From a virus: DNA of 38,082 bases. Below, piece after piece: positions 12,587 to 34,079 of this stretch. The stretch is taken from positions 1 through 38,082 of the IMG/VR virus record IMGVR_UViG_3300042453_003799; one strand, given 5' to 3'. The position numbers were made by a program, and so were the translations under genes. The notes beneath the pieces are model-generated. The model searched no databases and had not been told where the DNA came from. It worked only from the letters and a program-made list of their open reading frames with translations. Within the stretch, counting starts at the first letter, position 1; the number at the start of each line of letters is the position of its first letter.

Positions 12587-15500
12587 TTATCCTGTAGATA
12601 CATTTACTGTTGTACTAATTGAATATATTATACCTTGTACTTCTGTATTAAACCAAATTGTTTGAGGACTTGTTATGCTTCCATTTATACGTACAGCAAA
12701 GTCACTATTTGCATTTGTTACTGCGTGATTAATTGAACCTGAATTTGATATAGGTACAATATTACTACCTGAAACTATAGTATATGTAGGATTAAAATCT
12801 CCAATACCGCTTAATGTTGATGCTGATCCTGTTTCTGCAAGACTAGTCCACCAATGTATTAATTGTTGTGGTCGTGTTAACGCAGAACCATCTACATCTT
12901 TAAAATCAGCTATAAATGATTTATTATTTCCTGATGAAACTACTGATAAACTACAACTTACAAAATTATATGTTGAAAGTCCTATAATATTTCCTGTTAC
13001 TGTTAATGAACCTGAAACTATTTGACTTCCTGTCACTACTAATGAACCTGTAACTATAGTATTACCATTTACATCTACTGTTGCATTTGGGGTTGCTGTT
13101 TTACCAAATGCTACTTGACTTCCTGTAGCATATAGTTGAACATTACCTAATCCATCTGATAAAACTACTGTAGAGGTTAAAGCAGTTGTTCCAGCATATT
13201 TACCTATAATAGTATTATAATTCCCTGTTGTTATAGATTCTCCAGATCCAGATCCTATAAGAGTATTACTACCACCTGTAGTTAATAAATCACCGGCAAA
13301 AGATCCTACCGCTGTATTGTAAGCTCCGGATGATATTGAATATAATGCTTGGTATCCTATAGCGGTATTTGCATCTCCAGTATTATTAGCAATTGTAAGA
13401 CTACCGTTTAAAGCTTCAACTCCTACAGCTGTATTATTGCTAGATGTCATATTATACATCGATTCAAATCCTATAGAAGTATTATTACTTTTATTTCGTG
13501 AGATAAATAAAGCTCTATGTCCTACTGAAGTGTTATTATCACCATTAATGTTATAAGGTAAAGTTTCATACCCTAAAGCTGTATTATTAACACCTATAGT
13601 ATTATCACGTAAAGTAATAGCTCCTAAAGCTGTATTTCTACTTCCTGTTGTAGTATTTTGTAAAGTAAAAAGTCCTACTGCTGTGTTGAATTGTCCTGTA
13701 GTAATCATATTCATAGAACCACTACCTACCATTGTATTTCCAGGTATATTAGAATTTCCTAAACCTATTTTTATAGTACTAACTGTTAAAATATTACCAT
13801 CAAATATTAAATTAGAATTTCCGGCGGCGATATTAGATGAATTTTTATAAACTACCTGATTTGCTGAACCTGCTACAGGACCTGTTGCCCCTGATAAACC
13901 TGAGGTACCTGATAGACCTGAAGTGCCTGATAAGCCTGAAAGACCTGATGTACCTGATAAACCTGATGTACCTGATGCTCCAGCTTCACCCATAGGTCCA
14001 AAACCTACATTAGTAAATCCTTCATTAGATGTACTATAATCTGAAATGAAATATAATGGATTTCCTATTGATCTAGCTGTTGTATGTCTTAATGTATTAT
14101 TTTGATAATATCTTACATTATAACCATCATAAGTTATATAAAATTTATCACTTAAACTATAGGTTCCAGTATATTGTACATTGGTTAATTCAGTAATAGT
14201 AAATTGATTACCACTTGCTTCAAATTGGAAACTAAAGTCTATTAAAGTCGGATCTTCTGGCGTTCCAGATATGGTTTCTATTAAGCCAAAAACTACAGCT
14301 ATATTGTCATTTGTTGTTTGGGCAGTAGTGTAAACTCCTCTTGCATATCCTTGAGTTGAATATACATAAGCGTCATAACTGCTACCACCTCCACCTGTGT
14401 TTATAAATGTTGATGAATTAGTTCCATAAGAAGTATTTGAAAATACAGGAGTAAAAATTGGAGTTCCTATAAGACCAGATAAACCTGAGGTACCTGATAG
14501 ACCTGATTCACCTGAAAGACCTGATAAACCTGAAGTTCCGCTTAAGCCTGAAAAACCTGACAAACCTGAAGCGCCGCTTAAGCCTGAAAAACCTGACAAA
14601 CCTGATGTACCTGAAAGGCCTGAAGTACCTGAAAGACCTGATGTACCTGATAAACCTGATGTACCGCTTAAGCCTGAAAAACCTGATAAGCCGGATAAAC
14701 CTGAAGTACCTGATAAACCAGATTCACCTGAAAGACCTGATAAACCTGATGTACCGCTTAAACCTGAAAAACCTGACAAACCTGATGTACCTGAAAGACC
14801 AGATTCACCTGAAAGACCACTTGTGCCTGATAAGCCTGATAAACCTGATGTACCTGATAAGCCTGAAAAACCTGATAAGCCAGATAAACCTGATGTACCT
14901 GAAAGGCCTGAAAGACCTGATGTACCTGAAAGTCCTGATAAACCAGAAGCTCCTGATAGGCCTGACGCGCCTGAAAGACCTGATGTGCCTGAGAGACCTG
15001 ATGTGCCTGAGAGACCTGATGTGCCTGATAAACCTGAAAGTCCTGAAGTGCCTGAAAGACCTGATGTGCCACTTAAACCTGAAAGACCAGATGTACCTGA
15101 AAGACCAGATAAACCTGATGCACCCGATAAACCTGAAGTTCCACTTAGGCCGGATAAGCCTGAAGCACCGCTTAAGCCTGATGCGCCTGATAAGCCTGAA
15201 GTTCCGCTTAGGCCTGAAAGGCCTGAAGTGCCACTTAGACCTGAAAGACCTGATGTGCCACTTAAGCCTGAAGTGCCACTTAAGCCTGATAAGCCTGAAG
15301 TTCCGCTTAGGCCTGAAAGGCCTGAAGTGCCACTTAAACCTGATAGACCAGATGTGCCGCTTAGACCTGATGCTCCTGAAAGACCTGATGCTCCTGAAAG
15401 ACCAGATGAGCCTGTTAAACTTAAATCAGTTCTATAGACTATATCTCCTAAATTATTAGAGACTAATATTCTTGTTTCAGTTGTGCCGGCCGCTAAAGTA

Positions 15501-17038
15501 GGTAAAGCTAAACTTCCTAAAAGGGAAGTACTTCCTGTAACTTGAAAACTACCTGATATTTTAGTAGTTCCTATTAATGTTTGAATATCATTAGTAGCAT
15601 CACCAAACTGGTTAGAACCAGATGAATAAATCACAGATGAAGTTTCATATATTGTTGTTAAATATGTTATACTACCTGTTCCGTTAACTGTTAAATTTCC
15701 AGTTACTGATAATGTTGTTCCGTCATAAGTGAAATTAGAAGAACCTGCTGGATTATTAGATCCGTCTTTGTAAACTACTTGATTTGCTGAACCCGCTATA
15801 GGACCTGTTGCTCCTGATAAACCTGAAGTGCCACTTAAGCCTGATGTACCTGAAAGACCTGATAAGCCTGAGGTGCCACTTAAGCCTGATAAACCTGATG
15901 TACCACTTAGGCCTGATAAACCTGAAGTACCACTTAAACCAGATGTGCCACTTAGACCTGAAAGACCTGAAGTGCCACTTAAACCTGAAAGACCTGAAGT
16001 TCCGCTTAGGCCTGAAGTACCGGATAAACCTGATGTTCCATTTAAACCTGAAAGACCTGAAGTTCCGCTTAAACCTGATAGACCTGAAGTTCCGCTTAGG
16101 CCTGAAAGGCCTGAAGTACCACTTAAACCAGATGTACCTGAGAGACCTGAAGTTCCGCTTAAACCTGATAGACCTGAAGTACCTGAAAGACCTGATGCGC
16201 CTGATAAACCTGAGGTGCCACTTATGCCTGATGTACCTGATAAGCCTGATAAGCCTGATGTACCTGATAAGCCTGATAAGCCTGATGTACCTGATAAGCC
16301 TGAGAGACCTGAAGTACCGCTTAAGCCTGATAAGCCTGATGTACCTGAGAGACCTGATGTGCCTGATAAACCTGAAGTGCCATTTAAGCCTGAAAGACCT
16401 GATGTACCGCTTAAACCTGATAGACCTGATGTACCTGAAGTGCCACTTAGACCTGAGAGACCAGATGTACCGCTTAAGCCTGATAAACCTGAGGTGCCGC
16501 TTAAGCCTGACAGACCTGAAGTACCGCTTAAACCTGATGTGCCTGAAAGACCTGATAAGCCTGAGGTACCACTTAAGCCTGAGAGACCTGATGTGCCTGA
16601 AAGACCTGATGTACCACTTAAGCCTGATAAACCTGAAGTGCCACTTAAGCCTGATGTACCTGAAAGACCAGATAAACCAGAAGTACCGCTTAGGCCTGAA
16701 AGACCAGAGGTGCCGCTTAATCCTGAAGCTCCTGAAGCTCCTGAAACTGTAGGTGTAATAGCAAATGAAGCTGTTAATGCATATGAAGCTGATGTAGCTG
16801 TAAGCGCGTAAGAAGCTGTAGTAGATGTAAATGAATTTCCTGCGTAAGATGCAGTACCAGTAAATGAGGGAGCAGTAATATTGCCTGTTACATCTAATGG
16901 ACCAATAACATTTAATGAACCACTTATAGTTATATCATAAGCTGAATTACCTGTTAAGGCATCAATTGATTGAGAAACTTGTTGAGCTTGTACGGTTGCA
17001 CCTGTTGTTATGCCCGCATTAGACAGTACTTGAGCCAT
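12587..17038 (-). CDS. Giant collagen-like tail fibre with lectin-like and YadA-like parts
   Basis: A modular fibre of 1483 residues. Residues 1-100 contain SASYALTA-type repeats. Residues about 100-407 and 543-852 are strict Gly-X-Ser triplets (GLS, GTS, GAS; GFS and GES only in the second block). Between them is a beta-rich cassette ([13 protein letters not shown] to RTDLSLTG) also found in the 27225 gene. Residues about 853-1017 look like a compact jelly-roll or lectin-like domain. A short third triplet block follows, then about 1060-1300 repeat the NTAVG-x-x-x-L pattern of trimeric adhesin heads. The last 180 residues form a globular tip. I infer a trimeric receptor-binding fibre. A motif 13 bases upstream and a terminator before that suggest it starts its own transcript. 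Confidence 0.8.
13890..13980 (-). repeat. Short Gly-X-Ser triplet block
   Basis: About ten Gly-X-Ser triplets in the 12587-17038 fibre, linking the lectin-like domain to the YadA-like head part. It has the same 9-bp unit as the long blocks and looks like a short flexible or triple-helical linker. Confidence 0.8.
14480..15410 (-). repeat. Gly-X-Ser collagen-like repeat block 2 of the 12587 fibre
   Basis: About 100 uninterrupted 9-bp units encoding Gly-X-Ser triplets, mostly GLS and GTS, with some GAS. This is the only long block also carrying GFS and GES, so a few charged or aromatic side chains occur here. Synonymous codons vary from unit to unit. The opposite strand is open over long stretches with Pro-rich translations, which is a shadow of the repeat. 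Confidence 0.9.
15815..16741 (-). repeat. Gly-X-Ser collagen-like repeat block 1 of the 12587 fibre
   Basis: About 100 uninterrupted 9-bp units. Amino-acid order is mostly GLS-GTS-GLS, with rare GAS, GIS and GLN variants. There is no proline and almost no charge. Gly holds every third position and Ser almost always the Y position. It is flanked by the SASYA-rich N-terminus and the shared beta-rich cassette. Confidence 0.9.
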
Positions 17039-17916: not shown

Positions 17917-18663
17917 TTAAAGTTTACTTTTTCTTAGTTCTTTTAATTCTTCTAAATTATATTCTATAGATTCAATATCTCTATCTATAAAAGTACTATC
18001 TAAACCTTTATGAATTACTCCTCCTGGTAGGCATAGTATAAAAGGATTTTCAGTTAGTTTACCTGGTGATTTTGGATTCCAATGAGTTAATTCCCAATCT
18101 AAACCAGCATTCCATGATGCATTCATGTATGGATAATCATACATTCTATCTAAAGGAATAGGCATCATATTTTTAATATCTTTAACACGCATAACCATAT
18201 GTCCAGCTCTACAAGCTCTTTTTTCACATAAACATCCAAATTTAGTTTTAATCCAACTTAATTCTTCATGTTCTTTACTCATATAACCTGTAGCTACATA
18301 CTTGTTAGGGTATGTATTTAAAATATCACAATATATACTTATTGGATCTTCAAATATATTATCTTGGTCTGTAAATTGAATAAAATCATAATCATCTAAG
18401 TTTATGTTTTCTAACATTTGAAGTAAAGCACCTCGTTGACCTAAATTAAATTCTGAGTTGTAAACTATAAAGTTATTATTAATATTTTTATTAATAATTT
18501 TTAATATTTCCTCTTTATTTTCTTGATCTGAGTTTTCAACTATGTAAATAGTGTTTGTTAATCCAGATTCTTGGATATCTTTTAATGAGTTAATAACATT
18601 TTTAATATGATGAGGTCTATTAAATGATGTTAATAAAGTAATTATTTTATTAGATTTTGACAT
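17917..18663 (-). CDS. GT-A (family 2-like) glycosyltransferase
   Basis: A 248-residue protein with the GT-A fold pattern: start KIITLLTSFNRPHHIKNVINSL (residues 6-27), the acceptor-loop pattern NLGQRGAL (73-80), and a DxD-type metal/nucleotide-sugar site in TDQDN (D99, D101). A late segment, AGLDWELTHW, is where the catalytic base region would lie. It has no membrane segment, so it is probably cytoplasmic and uses a nucleotide-sugar donor. It follows the GT9-like gene by two bases, suggesting coupled expression of two sugar-transfer steps. Being placed among fibre genes favours modification of virion proteins, but host surface glycans are an alternative target. The sugar and acceptor cannot be read from the sequence. 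Confidence 0.8.
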   Translation of the reverse strand: MSKSNKIITLLTSFNRPHHIKNVINSLKDIQESGLTNTIYIVENSDQENKEEILKIINKNINNNFIVYNSEFNLGQRGALLQMLENINLDDYDFIQFTDQDNIFEDPISIYCDILNTYPNKYVATGYMSKEHEELSWIKTKFGCLCEKRACRAGHMVMRVKDIKNMMPIPLDRMYDYPYMNASWNAGLDWELTHWNPKSPGKLTENPFILCLPGGVIHKGLDSTFIDRDIESIEYNLEELKELRKSKL

Positions 18664-18665
18664 TA

Positions 18666-19991
18666 TTATTTATTTAAAACCTTTAATATATCTTTTATTT
18701 GGATTAAATTCATACATTCTTTTCTTTCTGGTTGTTGAGCGTCTAACCACCATCTTCTATCATAGTAATTTTTACCACAATCTTTTTCTATATATTTTAC
18801 TCTATAATGTTTAGCATGATCATTATAAAATGGTGTTAAACAAATACCTACATTAGGTTTAATTGAAGAAGCAAAATGGTGAAAAAATGTATCTACACTT
18901 AACCATAAATCAGATTCTTCAATTAAACCAGCTAATTCAGGAATTGATTTATCTAAAACTTTTTCATCTACTCCGGCTTGACAATAAGGAGAAACAGGTA
19001 ATTTAGTATAATATGAAGGTAATTGGTTATCTTTATGAGAGCCTACTTGAACAACATAATAACCTAATTTTTTTAATTCATATACTAATTTAAACCATTT
19101 AAGTTCTGACCAATCTTTATTAGAATCTTGTCCTCCAACTTTAGCAGCTGTAATACTAATTAAAGCTAATGGTTTGTTTGTGTTATTTGTAATTTTATTT
19201 TTAGGTCCTGTATATTTTAAAATATCATTTATTTCTCGTTTTTCTCCATATAATTCAAAAAATGCATCTATAATTGTAGTTATGTTATTTGTAGACCCAT
19301 AAGTATAAACAAATCGTTTATATCCTCCAAATAATTCATCATCCCAACCAATAAATCCTTTACATTTAATATGTTCTAAAGAAGATGGATATACACAAGA
19401 TATATAACAATCTTTACCTATTTTTTCTAATAAGGGATAAGCCATAACATGATCACCTAATCCACCATCTATATAAATTATTCTGCTGTAGAATAAAGGG
19501 TGTGATCTTTTTTTATCATATCTTTCTGAATCTGAAGATATATCTGGATAGAATGATGCTTTAGTTTTTTGAGTAATTAAATCCGCTATAAACCATATTA
19601 TAGATTGATATTTAGTGTCCCAATTAAGGCGTAATAAATCACTTGTTTTTGCTAATAAATAGGTATTATTAAGTATATCCCAGTCTTTAAAGTCAAAGTG
19701 TGTATTAGACTCATCTATAATTAAACTATATTCAGTTTTAGTTTTAGATATAAGTTCTACAAGAGAAGGTACAGATTGGTTTTCAGTTGGTGATACACTA
19801 TAAAAATAAGCAAGTGATGTTAGCTTATTTAATATATTTGGTTTTGACCAAGGTGTAATATCTTTACAATTAACTTGTAAAGTATGGAATTGAGATTTTA
19901 AAGGATGTTTATGTAATTGATCTAATAAAGTTAATAACTTAGTTTCATTCTCCGTATGAATGATAACAGTTATTTTATCATTTTGGGTCAT
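18666..19991 (-). CDS. GT-B (family 9/heptosyltransferase-like) glycosyltransferase with extra N-terminal domain
   Basis: A 441-residue protein. Residues about 168-441 fit the GT9 GT-B pattern: the Gly-rich loop IIYIDGGLGDHVMAYPLL (171-188), the donor-side strand and NKDWSELKWFKLVYELKKLGYYVVQVGS (291-318), and the signature SIPELAGLIEESDLWLSVDTFFHHFASSIKPN (349-380), which corresponds to the D-T/S-x-x-x-H-x-A motif of heptosyltransferases. Residues 1-150 begin like a GT-A domain (KITVIIHTENETKLLTLLDQL) but contain only IIDESN where a DxD would be expected, so this half may be degenerate. It is adjacent to the GT2-like gene and immediately follows small fibre-associated genes. The acceptor is unknown. 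Confidence 0.78.
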   Translation of the reverse strand: MTQNDKITVIIHTENETKLLTLLDQLHKHPLKSQFHTLQVNCKDITPWSKPNILNKLTSLAYFYSVSPTENQSVPSLVELISKTKTEYSLIIDESNTHFDFKDWDILNNTYLLAKTSDLLRLNWDTKYQSIIWFIADLITQKTKASFYPDISSDSERYDKKRSHPLFYSRIIYIDGGLGDHVMAYPLLEKIGKDCYISCVYPSSLEHIKCKGFIGWDDELFGGYKRFVYTYGSTNNITTIIDAFFELYGEKREINDILKYTGPKNKITNNTNKPLALISITAAKVGGQDSNKDWSELKWFKLVYELKKLGYYVVQVGSHKDNQLPSYYTKLPVSPYCQAGVDEKVLDKSIPELAGLIEESDLWLSVDTFFHHFASSIKPNVGICLTPFYNDHAKHYRVKYIEKDCGKNYYDRRWWLDAQQPERKECMNLIQIKDILKVLNK

Positions 19992-21046: not shown

Positions 21047-23758
21047 TTATTTAGTTTTAAGTTGTTCTTCTAGATTATTTACTTTATTAGTTAATTCTTT
21101 AATAGCTTCAATTAATAAAGGAACTAGTTTTTCATATTTGACAGCTTTATATCCACTGTCTCTAGTAGTAACTACTTCGGGTAGTATAGATTCAATTTCT
21201 TGAGCTATAATTCCTACATCTTTACCTTCAAAACCATGTAATATAGTTAAATCAGGATCTGGTTTCCAATCAAATGTATTACCAGATATTAAATTTACTT
21301 TATATAAAGCGTTTTCTATAGGTTGTATATTTTCTTTTAAACGAATGTCTGAGGTTGAGAATGCTACTACATCATTTGAAGCATCAAATCTACCTACAGT
21401 TGCACTAGCTCCTATTCCACCAATAGCTAATGAACCCGACATTGTAGTTCTACTTCCAGTAGCGTAAAATTTAATATTTCCTGATCCATCTGTTAAGACT
21501 ACAGTTGATGTTAAACTTAATGATGATGAGAAGCCTCCTATAATTGTATTATTACTACCTACAACATTATAACCTGCGTCTTTTCCTATGAATATATTAT
21601 TAACTCCAGCTATATTATTATACCCTGCTCTGTATCCTATATTTATACTATAATTAGCACTATTTATAGAAAAACCAGCAGTAGTTCCAATAGAAATAGT
21701 ATGAATGCCCGTTTTCATATCATAGGCAGTTTGGTATCCTAGAGCTACATTATTATTAGCTGTGTTAGTAGCAGCACCTGCTGGATTTCCTCTCATTGCT
21801 TGATATCCTAAAGCACAGTTATATTGAGCTGATGTGTTAGTAAAATAATAATGAGAAGTGTATCCAAATCCTAAATTAGCTTGGCCTGATGAAAGTTGCC
21901 CACATTGTGTTCCAAAGTAAGTATTATAGTTAGCAGTAGTGAGGGAGTTTGCACCAGCAGCAAATCCAAAAATAACATTACCTATACCAGAAGTGATAGC
22001 AGCTCCCGCTAAGTTACCGTAAACTGTATTTCTTATAGCTCCCGTAGTTGTAGCTTGTAAGGAACCACTTCCTATAGCAGCTGATGTTGAGTCATTAAGT
22101 AATCCTTTCCATATCCATACTGTATCTATATCTAATCTTTTTCTTAAAGGATTTATGTTTATAGATGCATTATCTAATGGGGCTGTTGCGCCTGTTGAAG
22201 CCGCAGTAAATGTTAAAAATCTATTAGCATCAGTATTATCTACAGCTACTGTTATAGTTGCCGGGGCCGCTCCTGATAAACCTGAGGTGCCTGAAAGTCC
22301 TGAAAGACCAGATGTGCCTGATAAGCCTGATAAGCCTGAGGTACCACTTAGACCTGATGTTCCTGAAAGACCGGATAAACCTGAAGTACCACTTAAGCCT
22401 GAAAGTCCTGAAGTTCCACTTAGACCTGATAAGCCTGAAGTTCCACTTAATCCTGAAAGGCCTGAAGTACCTGAAAGACCTGATAGACCTGAAGTGCCAC
22501 TTAAGCCTGATAAACCGGATGTGCCTGATAAACCAGATAAACCTGATGTACCTGATAAACCTGAAAGACCAGATGTACCACTTAGACCTGAAAGACCAGA
22601 TGTACCTGATAAGCCTGATAAACCTGAAGTACCACTTAGACCTGATGCTCCTGATAGGCCTGATGTACCTGAAAGACCTGATAATCCTGATGCTCCTGAT
22701 AATCCTGATGCTCCTGATAAGCCTGATGTACCTGAAAGACCTGATAATCCTGATGCTCCTGATAAGCCTGATGTACCTGATAAGCCTGATGTACCTGAAA
22801 GACCTGATAATCCTGATGCTCCTGAAAGTCCTGAAGTACCTGATAAGCCTGATGTACCTGAAAGACCTGATAATCCTGATGCTCCTGAAAGTCCTGAAGT
22901 ACCTGAAAGTCCTGATAAACCAGAAGTACCGCTTAGGCCTGAAAGACCAGATGTACCACTTAAGCCTGAAAGTCCTGAAGTACCTGAAAGTCCTGATAAA
23001 CCTGAAGTACCGCTTAGGCCTGAAAGACCAGATGTACCACTTAAGCCTGAAAGTCCTGAAGTACCTGAAAGTCCTGATAAACCTGAAGTTCCACTTAGAC
23101 CTGAAGTACCTGATAAACCAGATGTACCACTTAAACCAGATAGGCCTGATGTACCTGATAAGCCTGAAAGGCCTGAAGTACCGCTTAAACCAGATAAACC
23201 TGATGTACCTGATAAACCTGAAAGTCCTGAAGTGCCACTTAAACCAGATAGACCTGATGTACCTGAAAGTCCTGATAAACCAGAAGTACCACTTAAACCT
23301 GATGCTCCTGAAAGACCAGATGCACCTGACGGTCCAGCTAATGTATTATATCCTAAAGTTTTAGTTGATGTATTATAAGTTACAGCTACTGTATCTGAGG
23401 TAGAAGGCAAAGTAATAGCTTTAATTGATCCACTTAATTGGATTGAGTTATCACTACCTGAAATTACAATAGGTTCTGCTCCGTATTTACCTAAGAAAAC
23501 TGAGTTGTTAGCATTAGCTTGTATCACTGGTAAACCAGCAATTGTATTTACTGAAAATAAAACTCCTGATAAATCATCGTCTACTGAAAATAAAGTACCT
23601 TGGTTACCATTCACAGTAAAGATATTGGTTCTACCTGTAGAACCTGAGCCATATAATACCAATGAACCTGAAGCTCCTTGAGTGATATTTTCAATATATC
23701 CTAATGAGCTTGTAAAGCCCATTATACTCGAGGCTGGTGTTATTCTAATATCTGCCAT
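21047..23758 (-). CDS. Collagen-like tail fibre with YadA-like head and S74 self-cleaving chaperone
   Basis: A 903-residue fibre. Residues 1-140 are a beta-rich attachment part. Residues about 141-495 are Gly-X-Ser triplets. Residues about 540-780 repeat the NxxxGxxAG/AL pattern seen in trimeric adhesin heads. Residues 801-903 match the peptidase S74 intramolecular chaperone: SDIRLKENI gives the catalytic Ser803 and Lys808 dyad with the usual five-residue spacing, followed by DVGIIAQEIESILPEVV, KAVKYEKLVPLLIEAIKEL and a C-terminal coiled coil. In this family the chaperone trimerises, guides folding, then cuts itself off before the Ser. That indicates a trimeric beta-rich fibre and predicts loss of about 101 residues in mature virions. 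Confidence 0.88.
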   Translation of the reverse strand: MADIRITPASSIMGFTSSLGYIENITQGASGSLVLYGSGSTGRTNIFTVNGNQGTLFSVDDDLSGVLFSVNTIAGLPVIQANANNSVFLGKYGAEPIVISGSDNSIQLSGSIKAITLPSTSDTVAVTYNTSTKTLGYNTLAGPSGASGLSGASGLSGTSGLSGLSGTSGLSGLSGTSGLSGLSGTSGLSGLSGTSGLSGLSGTSGLSGLSGTSGLSGTSGLSGTSGLSGLSGTSGLSGLSGTSGLSGLSGTSGLSGLSGTSGLSGLSGTSGLSGLSGTSGLSGLSGTSGLSGASGLSGLSGTSGLSGTSGLSGASGLSGLSGTSGLSGTSGLSGASGLSGLSGTSGLSGASGLSGASGLSGLSGTSGLSGASGLSGTSGLSGLSGTSGLSGLSGTSGLSGLSGTSGLSGLSGTSGLSGLSGTSGLSGLSGTSGLSGLSGTSGLSGLSGTSGLSGLSGTSGLSGLSGTSGLSGTSGLSGLSGTSGLSGLSGTSGLSGAAPATITVAVDNTDANRFLTFTAASTGATAPLDNASININPLRKRLDIDTVWIWKGLLNDSTSAAIGSGSLQATTTGAIRNTVYGNLAGAAITSGIGNVIFGFAAGANSLTTANYNTYFGTQCGQLSSGQANLGFGYTSHYYFTNTSAQYNCALGYQAMRGNPAGAATNTANNNVALGYQTAYDMKTGIHTISIGTTAGFSINSANYSINIGYRAGYNNIAGVNNIFIGKDAGYNVVGSNNTIIGGFSSSLSLTSTVVLTDGSGNIKFYATGSRTTMSGSLAIGGIGASATVGRFDASNDVVAFSTSDIRLKENIQPIENALYKVNLISGNTFDWKPDPDLTILHGFEGKDVGIIAQEIESILPEVVTTRDSGYKAVKYEKLVPLLIEAIKELTNKVNNLEEQLKTK
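22671..22886 (-). repeat. 63-bp tandem repeat within the fibre gene
   Basis: A landmark in the plus-strand sequence, gaaagacctgataatcctga, begins at 22671, 22734, 22797 and 22860, exactly 63 bp apart. Sequence between landmarks is nearly identical, unlike the codon-varied repeats elsewhere, so this looks like recent unequal recombination in 21-residue steps. Confidence 0.85.
22891..23085 (-). repeat. 81-bp tandem repeat within the fibre gene
   Basis: A landmark beginning gtcctgaagtacctgaaagt occurs at 22891, 22972 and 23053, 81 bp apart, with nearly identical sequence between copies. Each step adds 27 residues (nine Gly-X-Ser triplets) and keeps the reading frame. Confidence 0.85.
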
Positions 23759-23767
23759 TTTTTATTT

Positions 23768-24115
23768 TTAAATTTGTGGATCAGGCAAAGGCACTGTCCA
23801 TTCTGGTGTTGCTAATAAATCTAATATAGGTTGATATTTATATTCTGGGTATACAGGGTTATATATAGAAGAAGGACGACCGTATGTTCCTGCTTCTACT
23901 ATATAATATTCAGTTTGTCCTGTAGTAGCATCAGTGTAACTTGATGTATAGCTTGCTGTTACTACAATTACATCATATTTTACAAATGTTTTTTCTTCAT
24001 CAACTGATAATCTTAAAGTAGTAGGATTTGCTTCTAATACTTGAGAAAAATCAATTGAGTTAGTTACATTTGTTGGTATTACTAACCAACGTCTATTTGG
24101 AAATTCATTACTCAT
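23768..24115 (-). CDS. Small fibre-region protein, uncharacterised
   Basis: A 115-residue soluble protein starting MSNEFPNRRWLVIPTNVTNSIDFSQVLE. It has alternating hydrophobic strands (YDVIVVTASYTSSYT) and a Pro/Trp-rich end. I do not recognise a family. It is placed between a lectin-like protein and the S74 fibre, nine bases before the latter. Its ATG lies only three bases beyond an ATATTTATAA motif that also touches the stop codon of the upstream gene. If the motif is a promoter, this gene would be leaderless or read from upstream mRNA. A minor fibre component is the best guess. Confidence 0.55.
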   Translation of the reverse strand: MSNEFPNRRWLVIPTNVTNSIDFSQVLEANPTTLRLSVDEEKTFVKYDVIVVTASYTSSYTDATTGQTEYYIVEAGTYGRPSSIYNPVYPEYKYQPILDLLATPEWTVPLPDPQI

Positions 24116-24118
24116 ATA

Positions 24119-24128
24119 TTATAAATAT
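24119..24128 (-). promoter_or_regulatory. ATATTTATAA motif almost touching a start codon
   Basis: Coding-strand ATATTTATAA three bases before the ATG at 24115. Its first base is part of the stop codon of the upstream gene. Confidence 0.5.
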
Positions 24129-25339
24129 TAACTTAAATTAAAACGTGTCTTATATTTTTGATAATTTTGTTGTACTTCATCTGCTGAAAGAGCTCTGTTG
24201 TATATTTTTGCAACAGGAATAGTTCCTGACCAAGCATAATTTCCTCCAGCTGCCCAGTATCCTATTTTAAAACCATCACTAAAATTTGCAGTTCCTGTTG
24301 AACCTTGAGCTCCTGCGTAATATCCATTTCTCCATACTCTAACATTAGTACCATCATATGTTATAACACAATGGATATATCCTGAAATTGATGGTGAAGT
24401 TGAGTGATAAAATTCACCAAAAACTCCTCCATGAGTATATGCCCAACTATAATCTCCATATTTGTAAAAAGCAGTATTAGTTCTACTAGCTATAGGCATT
24501 TTACCTTCTGCTCCTTTATAAGCTACATATTCTATAGTATATTGAGATACAGTACCAAAATTTGTTGGAATATTAATAACATCATCAGTTCCATCAAAAT
24601 ACATTTGTGCATTTGAAGTGTATGACATGTTAGTTAAATCTATAGTTGGATTATTTACTAAAGGAAGTAAACCTTGAGTTGTTGAACGAGTAGTCCCAGA
24701 AGGAATAATTTGTTGAGGTGGTCTAATAGTATCTCCAGGACATATACTTACCGCAGCTATTGATATTTTATTTGCTACATAATATTGATAATACCATAAT
24801 CCTGTATATCCTAAAGCTGCATTAGCATTTGTTGTAAAAGTATTCCAAGCATGATACCAACCATCTCCTAAAGATTCTACTTTATTTGTATCAAATACTC
24901 CATATTCTGTAATATAAGCACCTGCACTTGTATATTCATAATGATACATAAAATTAGGATGTGTGTATCCTGAAGTACTTTTATATATTATCTGATAAGA
25001 ATAAATTTGTCCTGGTAACCATATATTACTATTAAAACCTCCAGTATATTGAAAAAGATTTGGGCAACATTGTTGTCCTGGTGATGAATTAATTACTTCA
25101 ACACTTTGTACAGTTCTTTGTCCTAAAGTAGGAATATAAGCTGTTTCTGTATAACCATTAGATTCAAAAAATACTCCAGGTGAATATGTAGTTATATTAT
25201 ATCCATTATAATTTCTATTTGCTCCTGTTGTTATATTTGTGCCTGGTTGTCCTATATATGAATTATAAGTATCACCAGTATCATACATAAATACTGATCC
25301 ACTCATTACTACACTTCCATATCCATTTGCTGATGACAT
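24128..25339 (-). CDS. LamG/concanavalin A-like adhesin
   Basis: A 403-residue protein. Residues about 235-403 follow the LamG jelly-roll pattern: a QMYFDGTDDVINIP strand pair, YTIEYVAYKG, a central YIHCVITYDGTNVRVWRNGYYAG, and the closing VAKIYNRALSADEVQQNYQKYKTRF, the usual end of LamG-like domains in phage tail proteins. The N-terminal 230 residues are Tyr/Thr/Ser-rich and contain an adjacent Cys pair (QQCCPN); they may form a second beta-sandwich. It probably binds a carbohydrate or other surface receptor. A terminator (25364-25390) lies upstream, so its transcription may start in the 102-base gap, although no ATATTTATAA motif is visible there. Confidence 0.72.
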   Translation of the reverse strand: MSSANGYGSVVMSGSVFMYDTGDTYNSYIGQPGTNITTGANRNYNGYNITTYSPGVFFESNGYTETAYIPTLGQRTVQSVEVINSSPGQQCCPNLFQYTGGFNSNIWLPGQIYSYQIIYKSTSGYTHPNFMYHYEYTSAGAYITEYGVFDTNKVESLGDGWYHAWNTFTTNANAALGYTGLWYYQYYVANKISIAAVSICPGDTIRPPQQIIPSGTTRSTTQGLLPLVNNPTIDLTNMSYTSNAQMYFDGTDDVINIPTNFGTVSQYTIEYVAYKGAEGKMPIASRTNTAFYKYGDYSWAYTHGGVFGEFYHSTSPSISGYIHCVITYDGTNVRVWRNGYYAGAQGSTGTANFSDGFKIGYWAAGGNYAWSGTIPVAKIYNRALSADEVQQNYQKYKTRFNLS

Positions 25340-25363
25340 ATTTTGTTATTATATTTTAAATTT

Positions 25364-25390
25364 TAAAAAAAGGGGCGCTTTCACGCCCCT
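25364..25390 (-). terminator. Intrinsic terminator after the concanavalin A-like gene
   Basis: A 7-bp GC-rich stem AGGGGCG / CGCCCCT (25371-25377 with 25384-25390) and 6-base loop, followed on the coding strand by a run of T residues. Confidence 0.88.
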
Positions 25391-25394
25391 CTTT

Positions 25395-25435
25395 GCTATG
25401 TAAACATAGCACCACGTGTCCCCCCGCAGAGGGAC
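25395..25435 (-). other. Two extra hairpins upstream of the terminator
   Basis: Between the stop at 25442 and the terminator lie a 6-bp hairpin (gctatg, loop taaa, catagc; 25395-25410) and a 5-bp hairpin (gtccc / gggac; 25418-25435) with a C-rich loop. With the terminator they form a tandem three-hairpin element, markedly more GC-rich than its surroundings. Confidence 0.6.
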
Positions 25436-25441
25436 ATATCT

Positions 25442-26569
25442 TTAACTATATAAACTATTAAATTGAGTATATAGTGATGAATTAAATGTCGTATTATAAA
25501 TATATGTTTGACCAAAATTAATAGATGATCCTACTTGAAAAAAATAACTACCTCCACGTTGTCCTATTTGACTTGGTCCAGAAATACCATTATTATTATT
25601 ATAACTAACTCCTCCAAATTGTAATATAGGAGAATATGATATACAATTTAGTCTAGCTAAATTCATAAAATAATAATATAATATAGATTGTGAACTAGCA
25701 TTTTCTACTGTTCCTCCTGTTGCACAATTATAAAATCCTGGTTGTCCTGCTACAAGTCCTTGTTTTCGTTTTACTTTACTATGTCCTGTACTACCTGATT
25801 TTGTTTTTTGGTTCCATGCTATACCAACGCATTGAGCAATATTTTCTTGAGAATTATTTACAAACATTTTAACATTAATATCCTGTGTAGTAGAAGCAAA
25901 TGATATAGAATTACTTTGTAATTGTATTGTAAGTAAATACCATTCATTTAAATTAAATTTATAATCAGTATAAACACTTGCTTGATATTTAGCACAACAA
26001 ATAGCTGCTCCAAATGATATTGGTGCAAATGTTGATCTATAATTAGTTACACTACTAGCATTTTTATAATAAGGAGCCATAGCTCCAAATTGTATATATC
26101 CATTTTCTTGATTTCCTGTTCCTGAATATGAGTAATCAAATCGAGCTAATCCTGCTCGTTTTGATTTTGTAACAAATCCAGAATCACCGGGATGGTTTGG
26201 GTCTGATTGATGTTTATATGATCTTGTATTACCATATTTAGTAGGAAATTGTACAATTTTAACCCATAATGATATAGTGTATACCCTTGTATTAGCTGTA
26301 TTTAAATTATAAACTGAACTAGCAATATTTTGTAAAGATAATTCAGGAGAAATAACATCTTGGTAACTACCGGATGAATACACATCATCATATGATGAAG
26401 TATATTCAGTGTTTACTCTTCTAGGTCCTGTAATGGCTCCATTTGAAGGAGCAGCTACATCAGGTGCTAGTGAAGATGTAAAATTATTAAATAATGTTGT
26501 TGAACCTGGTTGGAACATAAACATTAAATTTTCTTTATTAGGTAGTATTGGTCCTGCTGAGGTTGGCAT
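25442..26569 (-). CDS. Concanavalin A-like adhesin
   Basis: A 375-residue protein with a likely jelly-roll core: RVYTISLWVKIVQFP (about residues 95-110), then KFNLNEWYLLTIQLQSNSISF (about 205-225), and DINVKMFVNNSQENI. This spacing (LWVK, WYLLTI, a ligand-side NN pair) is the LamG/concanavalin A pattern, although the closing motif of the neighbours is missing. It has several Cys residues, including a CC pair, unusual for a cytoplasmically folded virion protein. It lies between two other lectin-like genes and ends at a GC-rich hairpin cluster. It is probably a receptor-binding or decoration protein. The family call is moderate. Confidence 0.6.
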   Translation of the reverse strand: MPTSAGPILPNKENLMFMFQPGSTTLFNNFTSSLAPDVAAPSNGAITGPRRVNTEYTSSYDDVYSSGSYQDVISPELSLQNIASSVYNLNTANTRVYTISLWVKIVQFPTKYGNTRSYKHQSDPNHPGDSGFVTKSKRAGLARFDYSYSGTGNQENGYIQFGAMAPYYKNASSVTNYRSTFAPISFGAAICCAKYQASVYTDYKFNLNEWYLLTIQLQSNSISFASTTQDINVKMFVNNSQENIAQCVGIAWNQKTKSGSTGHSKVKRKQGLVAGQPGFYNCATGGTVENASSQSILYYYFMNLARLNCISYSPILQFGGVSYNNNNGISGPSQIGQRGGSYFFQVGSSINFGQTYIYNTTFNSSLYTQFNSLYS

Positions 26570-26570
26570 A

Positions 26571-27221
26571 TTATAATCCGAATCTTGATTTTAAAGCGTT
26601 ATAGTTTTGAGTCATTTCTGTTGTTGTGAGTACTCGGTTGTAGACTAATACAAAACTAAATTCGCCTGTACTATATTCTGAATTAGCGTAACCAATTTTA
26701 CCAACAGTAATACCTGCTGGTCCTTGTGATCCACCATTATTAGGACCTCCAGTTAATATATTGTTTGTATATGAAGCATAACTATCTCCACTTACATTTC
26801 CTAGAGCAGTTACTATTCTCCAATTAGTATCATTGGCTCCATTTTGAACAGGTGATACCCATCCTTCAGCGTAATAATTTTCTGTTGAGTTGTTCCAACA
26901 CCCAATTAACCAGTTATTTGATGTAGCATTAATCATTCTACCTCTAGTACCACCACTATATCGAGCAGCACCCATTACTGTATTATTAGTACTTGGTAAA
27001 CTAGGACTATTAGTTCCAACATAATCATCAGCACCATCGAATGTTAATACACCACCATTTGTTTGATTATATCCAACTCCATTATATAAAGTACCATTAT
27101 TACCATTTCCTGATAAATCATAAATTGTAGTACCAGTACCTGGATATGAATTTTTATCAGCTGAGTCCCAGTGTAGTATTAATCCGTTTGTTATTATACT
27201 AGGTCCATAAATTAAAGCCAT
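26571..27221 (-). CDS. LamG-like adhesin
   Basis: A 216-residue protein that is essentially a single LamG jelly roll. It opens GLILHWDSADKNSYPGTGTTIYDLSGNGNNGTLYNG, continues GGVLTFDGADDYVGT, and closes FSFVLVYNRVLTTTEMTQNYNALKSRFGL. This opening and closing pair is frequent in phage tail-associated LamG proteins. The first residues (MALIYGPSIITNGLILHWD) lack a signal peptide, fitting a virion protein. It is separated by only three bases from the large 27225 fibre gene and by one from the next lectin-like gene, so the block is surely co-transcribed. A role in host-glycan binding is likely. Confidence 0.75.
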   Translation of the reverse strand: MALIYGPSIITNGLILHWDSADKNSYPGTGTTIYDLSGNGNNGTLYNGVGYNQTNGGVLTFDGADDYVGTNSPSLPSTNNTVMGAARYSGGTRGRMINATSNNWLIGCWNNSTENYYAEGWVSPVQNGANDTNWRIVTALGNVSGDSYASYTNNILTGGPNNGGSQGPAGITVGKIGYANSEYSTGEFSFVLVYNRVLTTTEMTQNYNALKSRFGL

Positions 27222-27224
27222 AAC

Positions 27225-30200
27225 TTAAATCTCCTTATCAAATTCTGTAACTAATTTATCTATATCTTTTCTTTCTGCAAATATTGAATAGTAGCAATCT
27301 AATGTATCACCTTTATATCCTAAAGTAACTCCATATTCATTAACTTCTTTAATCCAAATTTCTTGGAATTGACCTATAGGCGTTATACTTACTGTTAAAG
27401 TGTCCTTGTGAATTAATGCGTACCAATAGTTAGGTAACGTTATATAATCGGTGTTTATAAGTCTACCACGAATATAAACCGAGTGTTCCGGTCCTTCTAA
27501 AACACCATATTGTAATCTTTTACCTAGTTGGGTAGGGTGATCAATTATGAATGATTTAACAGTTGCTGTTAAGGTTCCATTAACATTTAATGTTGAACCA
27601 TCAAAGGTTAAATTAGCTGAACCTGCGGGATTATTAGATCCGTCTTTGTAAACTACTTGATTTGCTGAACCGGCTACTGGGCCTGTAGCTCCTGATATAC
27701 CTGAAGTTCCTGAAAGACCAGATGTGCCACTTAAACCAGATGTGCCTGATAAACCTGATGTACCGCTTAGGCCTGATGTGCCGGATAAACCTGATAAACC
27801 TGATGTACCACTTAAGCCACTTGTTCCTGATAAACCTGATGTACCGCTTAAACCTGAAAGTCCTGAAGTACCACTTAGACCTGAAAGACCTGAAGTACCA
27901 CTTAGACCTGAGAGACCAGATGTGCCACTTAAGCCTGAAAGTCCTGAAGTACCACTTAGGCCGGATAAACCAGAAGTGCCACTTAAACCTGAAAGTCCTG
28001 AAGTACCTGAAAGTCCTGAAGTTCCACTTAAACCAGATAGACCTGAAGTACCACTTAGGCCTGATAAGCCTGATGTACCGGATAGACCGGATAAACCAGA
28101 AGTGCCGCTTAAACCTGATAAGCCTGATGTACCTGATAAACCTGAAAGACCTGATGTACCTGAAAGGCCGGATAAACCTGATGTACCATTTAAGCCTGAA
28201 AGGCCTGAAGTGCCACTTAAGCCTGATGTACCTGAAAGACCTGATAAGCCTGAGGTACCACTTAAGCCTGATAAACCAGATGTACCTGAAAGACCTGATG
28301 TACCACTTAAGCCTGAAAGGCCTGAAGTGCCACTTAGACCTGAAAGACCAGATGTACCACTTAAGCCTGAAGTACCTGATAAACCTGATGTACCACTTAA
28401 GCCTGAAAGGCCTGAAGTACCGCTTAGACCAGATAAACCTGATGTACCTGAGAGGCCTGAAGCTCCACTTAATCCTGATGCTCCAGATAAACCTGATGAG
28501 CCTGTTAAACTTAAATCAGTTCTATAGACTATATCTCCTAAATTATTAGAGACTAATATTCTTGTTTCTGTTGTTCCTATATTTAAAGCAGGTAGAGCAA
28601 AACTTCCTGAAAGTGAAGTACTTCCTGAAACTTGGAAACTACCAGTAACAGAAGTAGCTGTTCTTAATGACCAAGTACTAGCATCATGTTGTGCTCTAAT
28701 ATTACCTTGACTATCAGCTATAATAACATTATTTGATAAACCTGCGGTTAAACCAATAACATTAGCTCCTAAAATTGTATTATATCGTCCTGTAGTAATA
28801 CCTCTACCTGAATCGTATCCAATAGCTACATTATTATCTCCTGTAGTTACATCACGTAAAGCTTGAGTACCTACTGCAGTATTATTACTTGCTGATGTTT
28901 GGGAAAATAAAGTATCATATCCTACACCAACATTATAACTACCTGATGTACTTGTTAGTAATGCTCTATTACCATTTGCTGTGTTGTAACTACCAATACT
29001 ATTATTACTTAATGATGAATCACCTACTGCGTTATTTCTTGTTCCTGTTGTATTTCTTTGTAAAGCAGAAGCTCCAAGAGCTAAGTTTCTATCTCCAGTA
29101 TTAAAAATAGTTGTAGCACCTTGCATTGCTCCATTACCAATAGCAATATTATATAGTCCTCCTTGTTGATTATATAAAGCACTACCACCTATAGCTATAC
29201 TTCCAGTAACAGCTGATCCTGTTGTTAAATACATAGTAGCATATCCTATTGCTGTTGAATCTCTAACACCAGTAGATAATCCTAAAGCAAAAGCACCCAC
29301 TGCTACTGTATTTCTAGAGGTTCCAATTAATGATGGATATGCACCAGCTCCAAATATTTCATTTGATGTTGCTGCGTTAGGTCCAGGATTTGTTATACTT
29401 CCTGATATAATAACAGAACCTGTTACTTGTAAACTACCTGTTACTTTAGAAGTACCAATTAATAATTGAACATCATCAGTAGCGTCTCCAAACTGGTTAG
29501 AACCAGATGAGTAAATTACAGACGCTGTTTCGTATATTGTATTTAAATAAGTTATACTACCTGTTCCGTTAACCGCTAAGTTACCAATTACAGTTAATGT
29601 AGTTCCATCATAAGTGAAGTTACTTGAACCTGCTGGATTGTTAGAACCATCCTTATAGACTACTTGATTAGCTGAACCTGCTACTGGACCTGTTGCTCCT
29701 GATAAACCTGAAGTTCCTGATAGACCTGAAGTACCACTTAAGCCACTTGTTCCTGAAAGACCAGATGTACCTGATAAACCAGATAAGCCTGAAGTACCGC
29801 TTAAACCTGATAGACCTGAGGCGCCGCTTAGGCCTGAAGTTCCTGAGAGACCCGATGTACCACTTAAACCTGAAAGACCAGATGTGCCACTTAGACCTGA
29901 AAGACCAGATGTACCACTTAAGCCTGAAGTTCCACTTAAGCCTGAAGTACCTGATAAACCAGATGTACCTGAGAGACCTGAAAGACCAGATGTACCACTT
30001 AAGCCTGAAAGTCCTGATGTACCTGATAAACCAGATAAGCCGGATGTACCGCTTAAGCCTGATAATCCTGAAGTGCCACTTAAGCCTGATAAACCTGATG
30101 CTCCTGATAGGCCGGATGCACCTGAGAGACCAGATGTACCGGAAAGTCCGGATGTACCGCTTAGGCCTGATGTACCTGAAAGGCCTGAAAGGCCTGAAGT

Positions 30201-31349
30201 GCCACTTAAGCCTGAAAGTCCTGAAGTACCACTTAGACCTGATGCTCCTGATAAGCCTGATGTACCTGAAAGACCTGATAATCCTGATGCTCCTGATAAG
30301 CCTGATGTACCTGATAAGCCTGATGTACCTGAAAGACCTGATAATCCTGATGCTCCTGATAAGCCTGATGTACCTGATAATCCTGAAGTACCACTTAGAC
30401 CTGAAAGACCAGATGTACCTGAAAGGCCTGATGTACCGCTTAAACCTGAAGTACCTGAGAGACCTGAAGCTCCTGATAAACCAGATGAACCGGTTAAACT
30501 TAAATCGGTTCTATAAACTATATCTCCTAAATTATTAGAGACTAATATTCTAGTTTCTGTTGTGCCGGCCGCTAAAGTAGGTAAAGCAAAACTTCCTGAA
30601 AATGAAGTACTACCAGTTACTTGTAGATTACCACTTGAACTAATATAAAACTTATTATAAGCGTTAAATGTATTACCGTCTTCAAAAAGTGCAGAAGATG
30701 TTAAATGGTCTCCTCCTTGTCCTTTTAATATTGCGTTATTAGTAGTACCTTGTTCGTTTCCTAAACCAATTGTGTTTCTAGGACCTGACATTAATAAACC
30801 ACCGTCATATGTTGATCCTGATGGATTAGCATATATCCAACGATTTTTTTCAGAATCCCAAAGTAATGAACCTGTTGATGAGTTACCAAATGATCCAGAA
30901 TCTATTACTTCAATACCTCCATATCGAACTGAAGGTGCGTCTGTGTTTAATACAATTGTACTATCTCCTACTATGACAACAGAAGATGTTACATTAGTAA
31001 ATGATGCTGTACCTAATACACTTAAATTTCCACTTATAATAGCATTACCACTCACATATAATCCTGATGATGATATAGCTGTTGTAGTAATGTTTCCTTG
31101 TTCTGTTACTTGTTGTAGGGTAGGGATATATGAAGCGCTCGCAGCAATATTAGCATATGAAGCACTTAATGCATTTATAGCATAAGATGCTGTACCAAAT
31201 AATGATCCTGTGAATGAAGGAGCAGTAATAGTTCCTGTTGTACTTATTGAAGCTGAAGAAAAACTAGCAACTTCACTTCCACTAACTGATAATGCTATTA
31301 TACTAGCACTTATCTGATTTAATCCATTTGGAGTTTTACCTGTATACAT
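27225..31349 (-). CDS. Giant collagen-like tail fibre with YadA-like repeats
   Basis: A 1374-residue modular fibre. Residues 1-285 hold SASYA-type repeats and beta-rich modules. Residues about 285-551 and 950-1220 are Gly-X-Ser triplets. Two copies of the [21 protein letters not shown] cassette and two of [17 protein letters not shown] flank them. Residues about 680-866 repeat the NTAVG/NIAIG-x-x-x-L pattern of trimeric adhesin heads. The last 130 residues (from VKSFIIDHPTQLGKRLQYGVLEGPEHSVYIRGRL to YYSIFAERKDIDKLVTEF) resemble a C-terminal domain I associate with T4-like phage tail fibres. I infer a long trimeric receptor-binding or whisker-type fibre. No motif precedes its ATG; it is read from upstream genes. 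Confidence 0.82.
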   Translation of the reverse strand: MYTGKTPNGLNQISASIIALSVSGSEVASFSSASISTTGTITAPSFTGSLFGTASYAINALSASYANIAASASYIPTLQQVTEQGNITTTAISSSGLYVSGNAIISGNLSVLGTASFTNVTSSVVIVGDSTIVLNTDAPSVRYGGIEVIDSGSFGNSSTGSLLWDSEKNRWIYANPSGSTYDGGLLMSGPRNTIGLGNEQGTTNNAILKGQGGDHLTSSALFEDGNTFNAYNKFYISSSGNLQVTGSTSFSGSFALPTLAAGTTETRILVSNNLGDIVYRTDLSLTGSSGLSGASGLSGTSGLSGTSGLSGTSGLSGLSGTSGLSGTSGLSGASGLSGLSGTSGLSGTSGLSGASGLSGLSGTSGLSGASGLSGTSGLSGLSGTSGLSGLSGTSGLSGTSGLSGTSGLSGASGLSGASGLSGLSGTSGLSGLSGTSGLSGLSGTSGLSGLSGTSGLSGLSGTSGLSGTSGLSGTSGLSGTSGLSGLSGTSGLSGLSGTSGLSGTSGLSGASGLSGLSGTSGLSGLSGTSGLSGTSGLSGTSGLSGTSGLSGATGPVAGSANQVVYKDGSNNPAGSSNFTYDGTTLTVIGNLAVNGTGSITYLNTIYETASVIYSSGSNQFGDATDDVQLLIGTSKVTGSLQVTGSVIISGSITNPGPNAATSNEIFGAGAYPSLIGTSRNTVAVGAFALGLSTGVRDSTAIGYATMYLTTGSAVTGSIAIGGSALYNQQGGLYNIAIGNGAMQGATTIFNTGDRNLALGASALQRNTTGTRNNAVGDSSLSNNSIGSYNTANGNRALLTSTSGSYNVGVGYDTLFSQTSASNNTAVGTQALRDVTTGDNNVAIGYDSGRGITTGRYNTILGANVIGLTAGLSNNVIIADSQGNIRAQHDASTWSLRTATSVTGSFQVSGSTSLSGSFALPALNIGTTETRILVSNNLGDIVYRTDLSLTGSSGLSGASGLSGASGLSGTSGLSGLSGTSGLSGLSGTSGLSGTSGLSGTSGLSGLSGTSGLSGLSGTSGLSGTSGLSGLSGTSGLSGLSGTSGLSGTSGLSGLNGTSGLSGLSGTSGLSGLSGTSGLSGLSGTSGLSGLSGTSGLSGLSGTSGLSGLSGTSGLSGTSGLSGLSGTSGLSGLSGTSGLSGLSGTSGLSGLSGTSGLSGLSGTSGLSGLSGTSGLSGTSGLSGTSGLSGLSGTSGLSGTSGLSGTSGLSGTSGLSGTSGISGATGPVAGSANQVVYKDGSNNPAGSANLTFDGSTLNVNGTLTATVKSFIIDHPTQLGKRLQYGVLEGPEHSVYIRGRLINTDYITLPNYWYALIHKDTLTVSITPIGQFQEIWIKEVNEYGVTLGYKGDTLDCYYSIFAERKDIDKLVTEFDKEI
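27690..28500 (-). repeat. Gly-X-Ser collagen-like block 2 of the 27225 fibre
   Basis: About 90 consecutive 9-bp Gly-X-Ser units (GLS, GTS, some GAS, GIS, GLN). It is flanked upstream in the gene by the shared LSLTG cassette and downstream by the [15 protein letters not shown] cassette, the same arrangement as in the 12587 fibre. Confidence 0.9.
29695..30495 (-). repeat. Gly-X-Ser collagen-like block 1 of the 27225 fibre
   Basis: About 89 consecutive 9-bp Gly-X-Ser units. Positions 30238-30359 are identical base for base to 22704-22825 in the S74 fibre gene, in the same orientation, marking recent recombination. Confidence 0.92.
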
Positions 31350-32057: not shown

Positions 32058-34079
32058 CTAGAATGTACCTCCATCTATAAGATTTGATGCTACCATTATA
32101 CTTCCACTATATTGAATCAAATCACCAGATTGTGAAGGAGAAATATATGCTAAAGTTTTAGCAGCTGACATATAAGTAAATTGAATTAATCCAGCTGATG
32201 AACCATCATATATTCCTAATGAACCTGATAAATAAGGAGCACTTATATTTCCTGTAGATGAAATTGTTCCTGATACAATTAAGTTTTGGAATAATGTATT
32301 AACATATGATGCTGTAGCAGCATTAAGAGCATAAGATGCACTTGTTGCTTGTAAAGCATATGATGATGTTAATGCTTCAGCGGCGTATGATGCTGTTCCT
32401 AACAATGAGCCTGTTACTCCATTAGTGATATTTAATGAACCACTGATTATAACATTTTGGTTGAGAATATTAACATAAGACGCACTTGTAGCATTTAAAG
32501 CATATGAAGCTGTTGTGGCATTAAAAGCATATGACGCACTTAAAGCATAAGATGAACTTAAAGCTTGGGCAGCATAAGATGCAGTTCCTAATAATGAACC
32601 TGTTACACCATTAGTAATATTTAATGAACCAGTAATTGTAACATTTTGGTTAAGAATATTAACATATGATGCACTTGTAGCATTTAAAGCGTAAGATGCA
32701 CTTGTTGCGTTTAAAGCATATGATGATGTTGTAGCATTTAAAGCATATGAGGCGGTAGTTGCATCTAAGGCGTATGATGCACTTGTTGCATTTAAAGCAT
32801 ATGATGCTGAAGTAGCATAATCAGCGTATGATGAAGTTCCTATTAATGAACCTGTAATACCTGCTGATGCAATTAAACTACCTGTAATTTGAGTATTTGA
32901 GTTTATAGATACTAAAGTACCTGTATCTGTAATATTAGTATCAACTACTGTATTATTACCTGTACCTTTAATAACTCGGTTTAAAGAAGGAAATACTTCA
33001 CTACCTTTAGAACCTGAAGGACCAGTTAAAATACCAGCTGATTTTCCTGTTTCTTCTACTGTCATCCAGTAATCATTATTACCGTTCCATTCAAAAGATG
33101 CTGTAGAATTTGATCCAGTATCATAAACCATAATACCAGCGTAAGGAGCTGTAGGTGAATCTGCATTTAATATAATAAATGAGTCACCAATAATTACTGC
33201 TGATCCTGTTACTGTTTTAGTATAACCGAATGAAGCTGTTCCAAGAACTACTAAGTTCTGATTTACTAAAATATTAGAAGCAGTAATATTTAATCCATCT
33301 GCTATAGTTAAAGCAAATCCTGCTGTTGAAGCATATGATGCACTTGTTGCATTTAAAGCATATGATGATGTTGTAGCATTTAAAGCATATGAAGCTGTTG
33401 TAGCATTAAAAGAATAAGATGCACTTAATGCATAAGATGAACTTAAAGCTTGAGCAGCGTAAGATGATGTGCCTAATAATGAAGCAGTAATACCATTTGT
33501 AACACCTAATGAACCAGTAATAGATACTATACCAGTATTAAGAATTTTAAAGAAATTAGAACTACCACTAACTACTTGAAATGTAGTAGGTCCAACATCT
33601 ACTGATGCTGTGACTGATCCTGAATCAATTTGATTTAAGTTTAAACCTACAACACTTGAAGCTGATATATTTGTTAAGCCACTACCATTACCTTGAAATG
33701 ATCCACTAAATGAACCTGAAGCTGTAATATTAGGTAATGTAGAACCACTTAAGTTACCAGCTAAGTTCATTGTAGTATTACCCGCTGAACTTAATATATA
33801 TAAGGTATTGTTTCCTACAGCATAAAATGGAGTACCATCTAATACATTACCGTAAGAAGCTGAAAGAATTGTTGGTACTGTTGATCCTTGATAAATTTTA
33901 GAAGCTGGTTTATAAACACCAGTTAAACCACTATCAGCTTGTGATGGTGAACCGTATAATATAAAAGGACCACTTAAGTCACCAATTGAACCTGAAGCAA
34001 CAAGTATTTCAGCGTTTTGGGTAGTTACGTCCTTTACATTATTTATACTCCCTCTTCTATTTTTTATTATTTGAGCCAT
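32058..34079 (-). CDS. Fibre protein built of nonapeptide SASYALNAT repeats
   Basis: A 673-residue protein. The start, MAQIIKNRRGSINNVKDVTTQNAEILVASG, is a basic fibre-type N-terminus. From about residue 190 there are arrays of a nine-residue unit close to SASYALNAT, interrupted by beta segments. A larger unit (ILNQNV-x-I-x-GSLNITNGVTGSLLGTASYAA plus nonapeptides) appears twice in tandem near the C-terminus, with a diverged third copy in the first half. Regular Tyr, Leu and Ser spacing suggests a repetitive, probably trimeric, fibrous fold. A motif lies 18 bases upstream, and a terminator follows the stop, so it is probably its own late unit. It could be a whisker or long fibre shaft; the T4 equivalent is unknown. 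Confidence 0.7.
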   Translation of the reverse strand: MAQIIKNRRGSINNVKDVTTQNAEILVASGSIGDLSGPFILYGSPSQADSGLTGVYKPASKIYQGSTVPTILSASYGNVLDGTPFYAVGNNTLYILSSAGNTTMNLAGNLSGSTLPNITASGSFSGSFQGNGSGLTNISASSVVGLNLNQIDSGSVTASVDVGPTTFQVVSGSSNFFKILNTGIVSITGSLGVTNGITASLLGTSSYAAQALSSSYALSASYSFNATTASYALNATTSSYALNATSASYASTAGFALTIADGLNITASNILVNQNLVVLGTASFGYTKTVTGSAVIIGDSFIILNADSPTAPYAGIMVYDTGSNSTASFEWNGNNDYWMTVEETGKSAGILTGPSGSKGSEVFPSLNRVIKGTGNNTVVDTNITDTGTLVSINSNTQITGSLIASAGITGSLIGTSSYADYATSASYALNATSASYALDATTASYALNATTSSYALNATSASYALNATSASYVNILNQNVTITGSLNITNGVTGSLLGTASYAAQALSSSYALSASYAFNATTASYALNATSASYVNILNQNVIISGSLNITNGVTGSLLGTASYAAEALTSSYALQATSASYALNAATASYVNTLFQNLIVSGTISSTGNISAPYLSGSLGIYDGSSAGLIQFTYMSAAKTLAYISPSQSGDLIQYSGSIMVASNLIDGGTF
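32280..33450 (-). repeat. SASYALNAT nonapeptide (27-bp) repeat arrays
   Basis: Three arrays of a nine-residue, 27-bp unit near SASYALNAT (about 32290-32590, 32660-32860, 33300-33450) within the 32058 gene. Related short arrays occur at the N-termini of the 12587 and 27225 fibres, linking the three proteins. Confidence 0.8.

Follow-up and report, generated by a model that had tools for sequence, protein, structure and literature searches.

How do two different fiber genes of one phage come to hold a long stretch of DNA that is identical even at silent positions? The question is raised by a 38,082-base viral record that holds tail genes (IMG/VR record IMGVR_UViG_3300042453_003799; the whole stretch is called the window below). 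The nearest isolated relative that we found is Flavobacterium phage vB_FspM_immuto, with 69% DNA identity over the sheath and neighboring tail genes; the source is an uncultured phage with Flavobacterium phages as its relatives. The fiber genes with collagen-like arrays are here called A, B and C:

12587-17038, minus strand: gene A, 1483 aa, a third fiber gene with an array of the same type as in B and C (PF01391, 2e-96)
21047-23758, minus strand: gene B, 903 aa, an N-terminal part, 118 Gly-X-Ser triplets (array 22268-23329; PF01391, 6.4e-54) and a C-terminal S74 chaperone domain (PF13884, 6.2e-15)
27225-31349, minus strand: gene C, 1374 aa, with collagen-like arrays at 29694-30485, 28191-28496 and 27687-28181 (PF01391, 1.1e-79)

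The collagen-like assignment is based on PF01391 matches far above the cutoff in all three genes and on arrays of 10-118 uninterrupted triplets. A tail or fiber context is indicated by matches to PHROG tail fiber families, though these are repeat-driven, by the S74 domain in gene B, and by the location of the genes among sheath and other tail genes. Genes B and C thus encode putative tail fibers with collagen-like Gly-X-Ser arrays as shafts. Outside the arrays the two genes differ, their non-repeat parts being unrelated, and in gene C other domains lie between the array at 29694-30485 and the remaining two. Between genes A and B (17917-19991) lie two genes that, read by eye, may encode glycosyltransferases.

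The shared sequence and its surroundings comprise the following features:

22704-22825, minus strand: gene B copy of a 122-bp tract, exactly identical to 30238-30359
30238-30359, minus strand: gene C copy of the tract, exactly identical to 22704-22825
30220-30386, minus strand: full shared patch in gene C, 167 nt with 5 mismatches to gene B and about 70% identity beyond
22586-22916, minus strand: 63-bp tandem array of gene B, which includes the tract and probably supplied it (Tandem Repeats Finder, 5.3 copies, 89% matches; the EILBA word pattern, see below, is repeated)
22923-23089, minus strand: 81-bp tandem duplication inside gene B, 86 bp of it exact (exact-repeat comparison)

A preliminary description of this DNA had claimed that the two copies of the tract agree base for base while silent sites vary elsewhere in the repeats, and had proposed a recent copy or gene conversion. 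Comparison within the window bears this out: 122 of 122 bases are equal at an offset of 7534, making the tract the longest exact direct repeat in the window (runners-up, 86, 74, 71 and 71 bases), and both copies are also present in a second assembly. Silent variation elsewhere is extensive, with 68 different 9-base words used among 511 triplets. At DNA level, 336 pairs of 117-base windows encode equal protein in B and C; their mean nucleotide identity is 0.769 (sd 0.052), and the tract pair is the only one to reach 100%. At 76.9% identity about 27 differences would be expected per 117 bases, and the tract has 0. Its silent-site identity is thus well above that of the rest of the homologous region (100% versus a mean of 77%).

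The shared tract exceeds 122 bases if the alignment may contain a 63-base gap or 3% divergence. Positions 30220-30386 of gene C align to 22623-22852 of gene B with one 63-nt gap, and likewise to 22623-22789 without a gap, each time with 5 differences in 167; the two alignments are indistinguishable because gene B is tandem in this region. At both edges of the patch, identity drops abruptly to the background of roughly 70% (about 30% differences). The two arrays thus share a sharply bounded patch, at least 122 bases long and about 167 in its full extent, that is far more alike than the rest and lies in genes otherwise unrelated.

In the notation of 9-base words, the order in gene B is ...EILBAJD EILBABA EILBAEI EILBNEFM..., a tandem of slightly differing 63-base units, and gene C reads ...IBA EILBABA EILBAE FM.... 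Gene B has three copies of the 45-bp EILBA motif and gene C two, and a scan of the viral collection returned it from no further contig. The 63-base units of gene B are unlike one another, with neighboring registers at 97% and 95%. Gene B has undergone two young tandem expansions, of 81 bases (22923-23089) and 63 bases (22586-22916), each in whole Gly-X-Ser triplets. Elsewhere in the window, 74 bases of gene A (15405-15478) are identical to 28495-28568 in gene C; most of this match falls in a cassette without repeats, upstream of the arrays, and it is a candidate for another recent exchange. In contig 3300042889_002979 the gene A base at 15479 is T, as at the matching gene C sites (28569 and 30558), which would extend the 74-base match.

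Several simple origins were rejected. Whole-gene duplication does not fit, as B and C have only the array in common and array windows elsewhere average 77% identity. Independent slippage would have to create one repeat twice, and the tract preserves a non-periodic order of silent variants. A diversity-generating retroelement was set aside, as it would leave A-specific changes rather than an exact copy.

The combination of silent-site identity far beyond codon bias, sharp edges, and unrelated non-repeat parts in B and C very probably reflects recent conversion-like copying from one array to the other without crossover, probably from B to C, by a phage recombination system such as relatives encode. 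The patch would have been copied by homologous recombination between the arrays with no crossing over. We infer the non-crossover outcome because a crossover between direct repeats would delete or duplicate the intervening 7.4 kb; this segment is intact in two assemblies, and the flanking genes and their order have not been exchanged. During replication, a phage system of the RecA/UvsX type would likely have acted through strand invasion or through template switching, and both copies may have been in one genome or in two phages that shared a cell. The source is probably gene B, with its 63-base tandem of about five units, and the recipient gene C, which has the motif solely inside the patch. 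Transfer from B to C is the simpler course on grounds of parsimony, though the motif may instead have passed from C to B and expanded there afterwards. The gene B units differ mutually and yet one stretch equals gene C exactly, so the copying probably took place after these units had diverged. For the fiber, the exchange may have been silent, or it may have changed shaft length and triplet order by whole triplets.

Machinery for such an event is present in relatives. A RecA-like protein is encoded by immuto and, with a match just below the family cutoff, by the 89-kb relative G007. In Immutovirus, genes for SSB, a RecA/RadA recombinase and a 5'-3' exonuclease adjoin, followed by a gene for a Holliday junction resolvase-like endonuclease. 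The window shows no recombinase gene, and the genome part where relatives carry it was not recovered; by analogy with these relatives, this phage presumably has the recombination machinery as well.

In a variant of this explanation, a co-infecting phage, rather than the other gene of the same genome, supplied the patch to one gene or to both. Fiber genes are modular, and the cassettes around the arrays are common to many phages, but the collection-wide scan returned the 45-base motif from this phage only and gene B itself carries a tandem source. We give this variant a small chance.

An assembly artifact, in which reads from one array were placed in the other and the real loci differ, is an unlikely origin of the tract, and judging from the contigs at hand we consider its chance slim. 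Contig 3300042445_002511, from another metagenome and with different contig ends, overlaps the window over 35,381 bases with 0 mismatches and holds both 122-base copies. Genes B and C keep open frames and a coherent domain order, and 122 bases is less than the 150 bases of a typical short read. Against this, the two records both were assembled from metagenomes, repeat arrays are difficult for assemblers, and similar programs may make the same mistakes, so that agreeing assemblies weigh less than long reads would. Among 33 related loci with a contig end at most 10 kb upstream of a shared cassette, 12 stop inside a collagen-like array by our reading of the printed ends, and 6 of the 33 do so by a stricter script score. 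Two more assemblies of the same phage (5 mismatches in 17.7 kb and 2 in 19.5 kb) do not extend as far as gene B. Besides the window, one contig only holds both genes B and C, and it is identical.

Chance under biased codon use is a third explanation, as a small Gly-X-Ser vocabulary might yield long matches without any copying. The vocabulary is small indeed, at 68 word types and 4.9 bits each. Because arrays built from few words are expected to share long stretches, we compared the longest exact match between the gene B and gene C arrays with four null models, each simulated 1,000 times. Shuffling codons within residue class gave a mean of 33 and a maximum of 61 bases; shuffling 9-base words within amino-acid class, 36 and 56; shuffling all words, 33 and 54; and a first-order word Markov model, which keeps word-to-word context, 48 and 88. 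Matches of 30-50 bases are thus expected by chance, but the observed 122 was attained 0 times under any model, and we reject this explanation as very improbable. No more credible is a DNA-level constraint, such as a signal or antisense gene within the tract that fixes its silent sites: antisense open frames do cross both arrays (22155-23378 and 29693-30538), yet they follow from the repeat codons themselves and span the whole arrays, where silent sites beyond the patch vary as much as the background does, and the tract motif is confined to this phage in the scanned collection.

The preferred reading, a conversion-like copy between arrays, can be set against other phages that carry two array genes. 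For 21 array-gene pairs in the fetched loci, we compared exact sharing with 60 codon shuffles, and seven pairs share an exact stretch longer than in any shuffle. Two of the seven are from this phage, which is extreme among the pairs tested, and loci L113 and L118 look like near-copies of each other, so the independent cases are fewer. In the other phages the excess sharing amounts to 71 bp in L113 and L118, 54-56 bp in L117 and 38 bp in L157. The nearest other relatives gave no clear tract: in G007, 6 of 200 shuffles reach the 39-base match between its A and BC arrays, and in G008, 121 of 200 reach the 24-base array match. The event is not datable on a tree, because neither relative has a tract beyond what shuffles give or nearly give.

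The tracts seen here probably represent the short end of a distribution, because assemblies would be expected to break at identical tracts of greater length. Short-read collections probably hide such longer tracts, since contigs of relatives often end in arrays. The array-ending contigs of other phages, in which the array precedes the shared cassette, are L108-L111, L123, L128, L136, L142, L149, L160, L164 and L170. A broader proposal, which we advance only tentatively and regard as doubtful, is that the collagen-like arrays of several fiber genes in this phage group form one recombining pool, in which copying is frequent enough to homogenize the arrays and adjust shaft length, and goes mostly unseen in short-read collections as longer identical tracts break contigs.

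Recombination in collagen-like phage fibers is already known, and this tract is a well-preserved new instance. The collagens of E. coli prophages have Gly-X-Y shafts between non-collagen domains in fiber-type proteins, with array lengths that vary by whole triplets and with combinations of domains that fit recombination (PMC3368898, which also cites 'Bacteriophage collagen', Smith et al. 1998). Like these and other collagen-like phage tail fiber proteins (PF01391), genes B and C place Gly-X-Y shafts between non-collagen domains; here, however, Ser fixes Y, X is nearly always Leu, Thr or Ala, and no proline occurs inside the arrays. In contrast to the prophage collagens, the exchange described here is between different genes of one genome and is seen at silent-site resolution. 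The antireceptor genes of Streptococcus thermophilus phages likewise use collagen-like repeats as domain separators, in a host-recognition protein with variable regions, as summarized in PMC5601072 (citing Duplessis and Moineau 2001); those genes were compared between phages, whereas here the two genes belong to the same phage. Immuto resembles this phage in its sheath and neighboring tail genes and encodes a RecA/RadA recombinase, but no Gly-X-Ser array of at least 8 triplets was found in its fetched structural region (L009). Searches of the open-licence literature gave no report of gene conversion among the collagen-like fiber genes of a single phage.

The repetitive shafts of different fiber genes in one phage would thus exchange DNA, which offers a route by which fibers can alter shaft length or swap parts. 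Such exchanges may be under-represented in short-read viral collections, because contigs tend to stop at arrays. Repeats of another kind also occur among the fiber genes of this phage: a further fiber-like gene at 32058-34079 is built on a different repeat (TASYALNATTSSYALNAT) with 27-base spacing, and has internal exact repeats of 41 and 34 bases.
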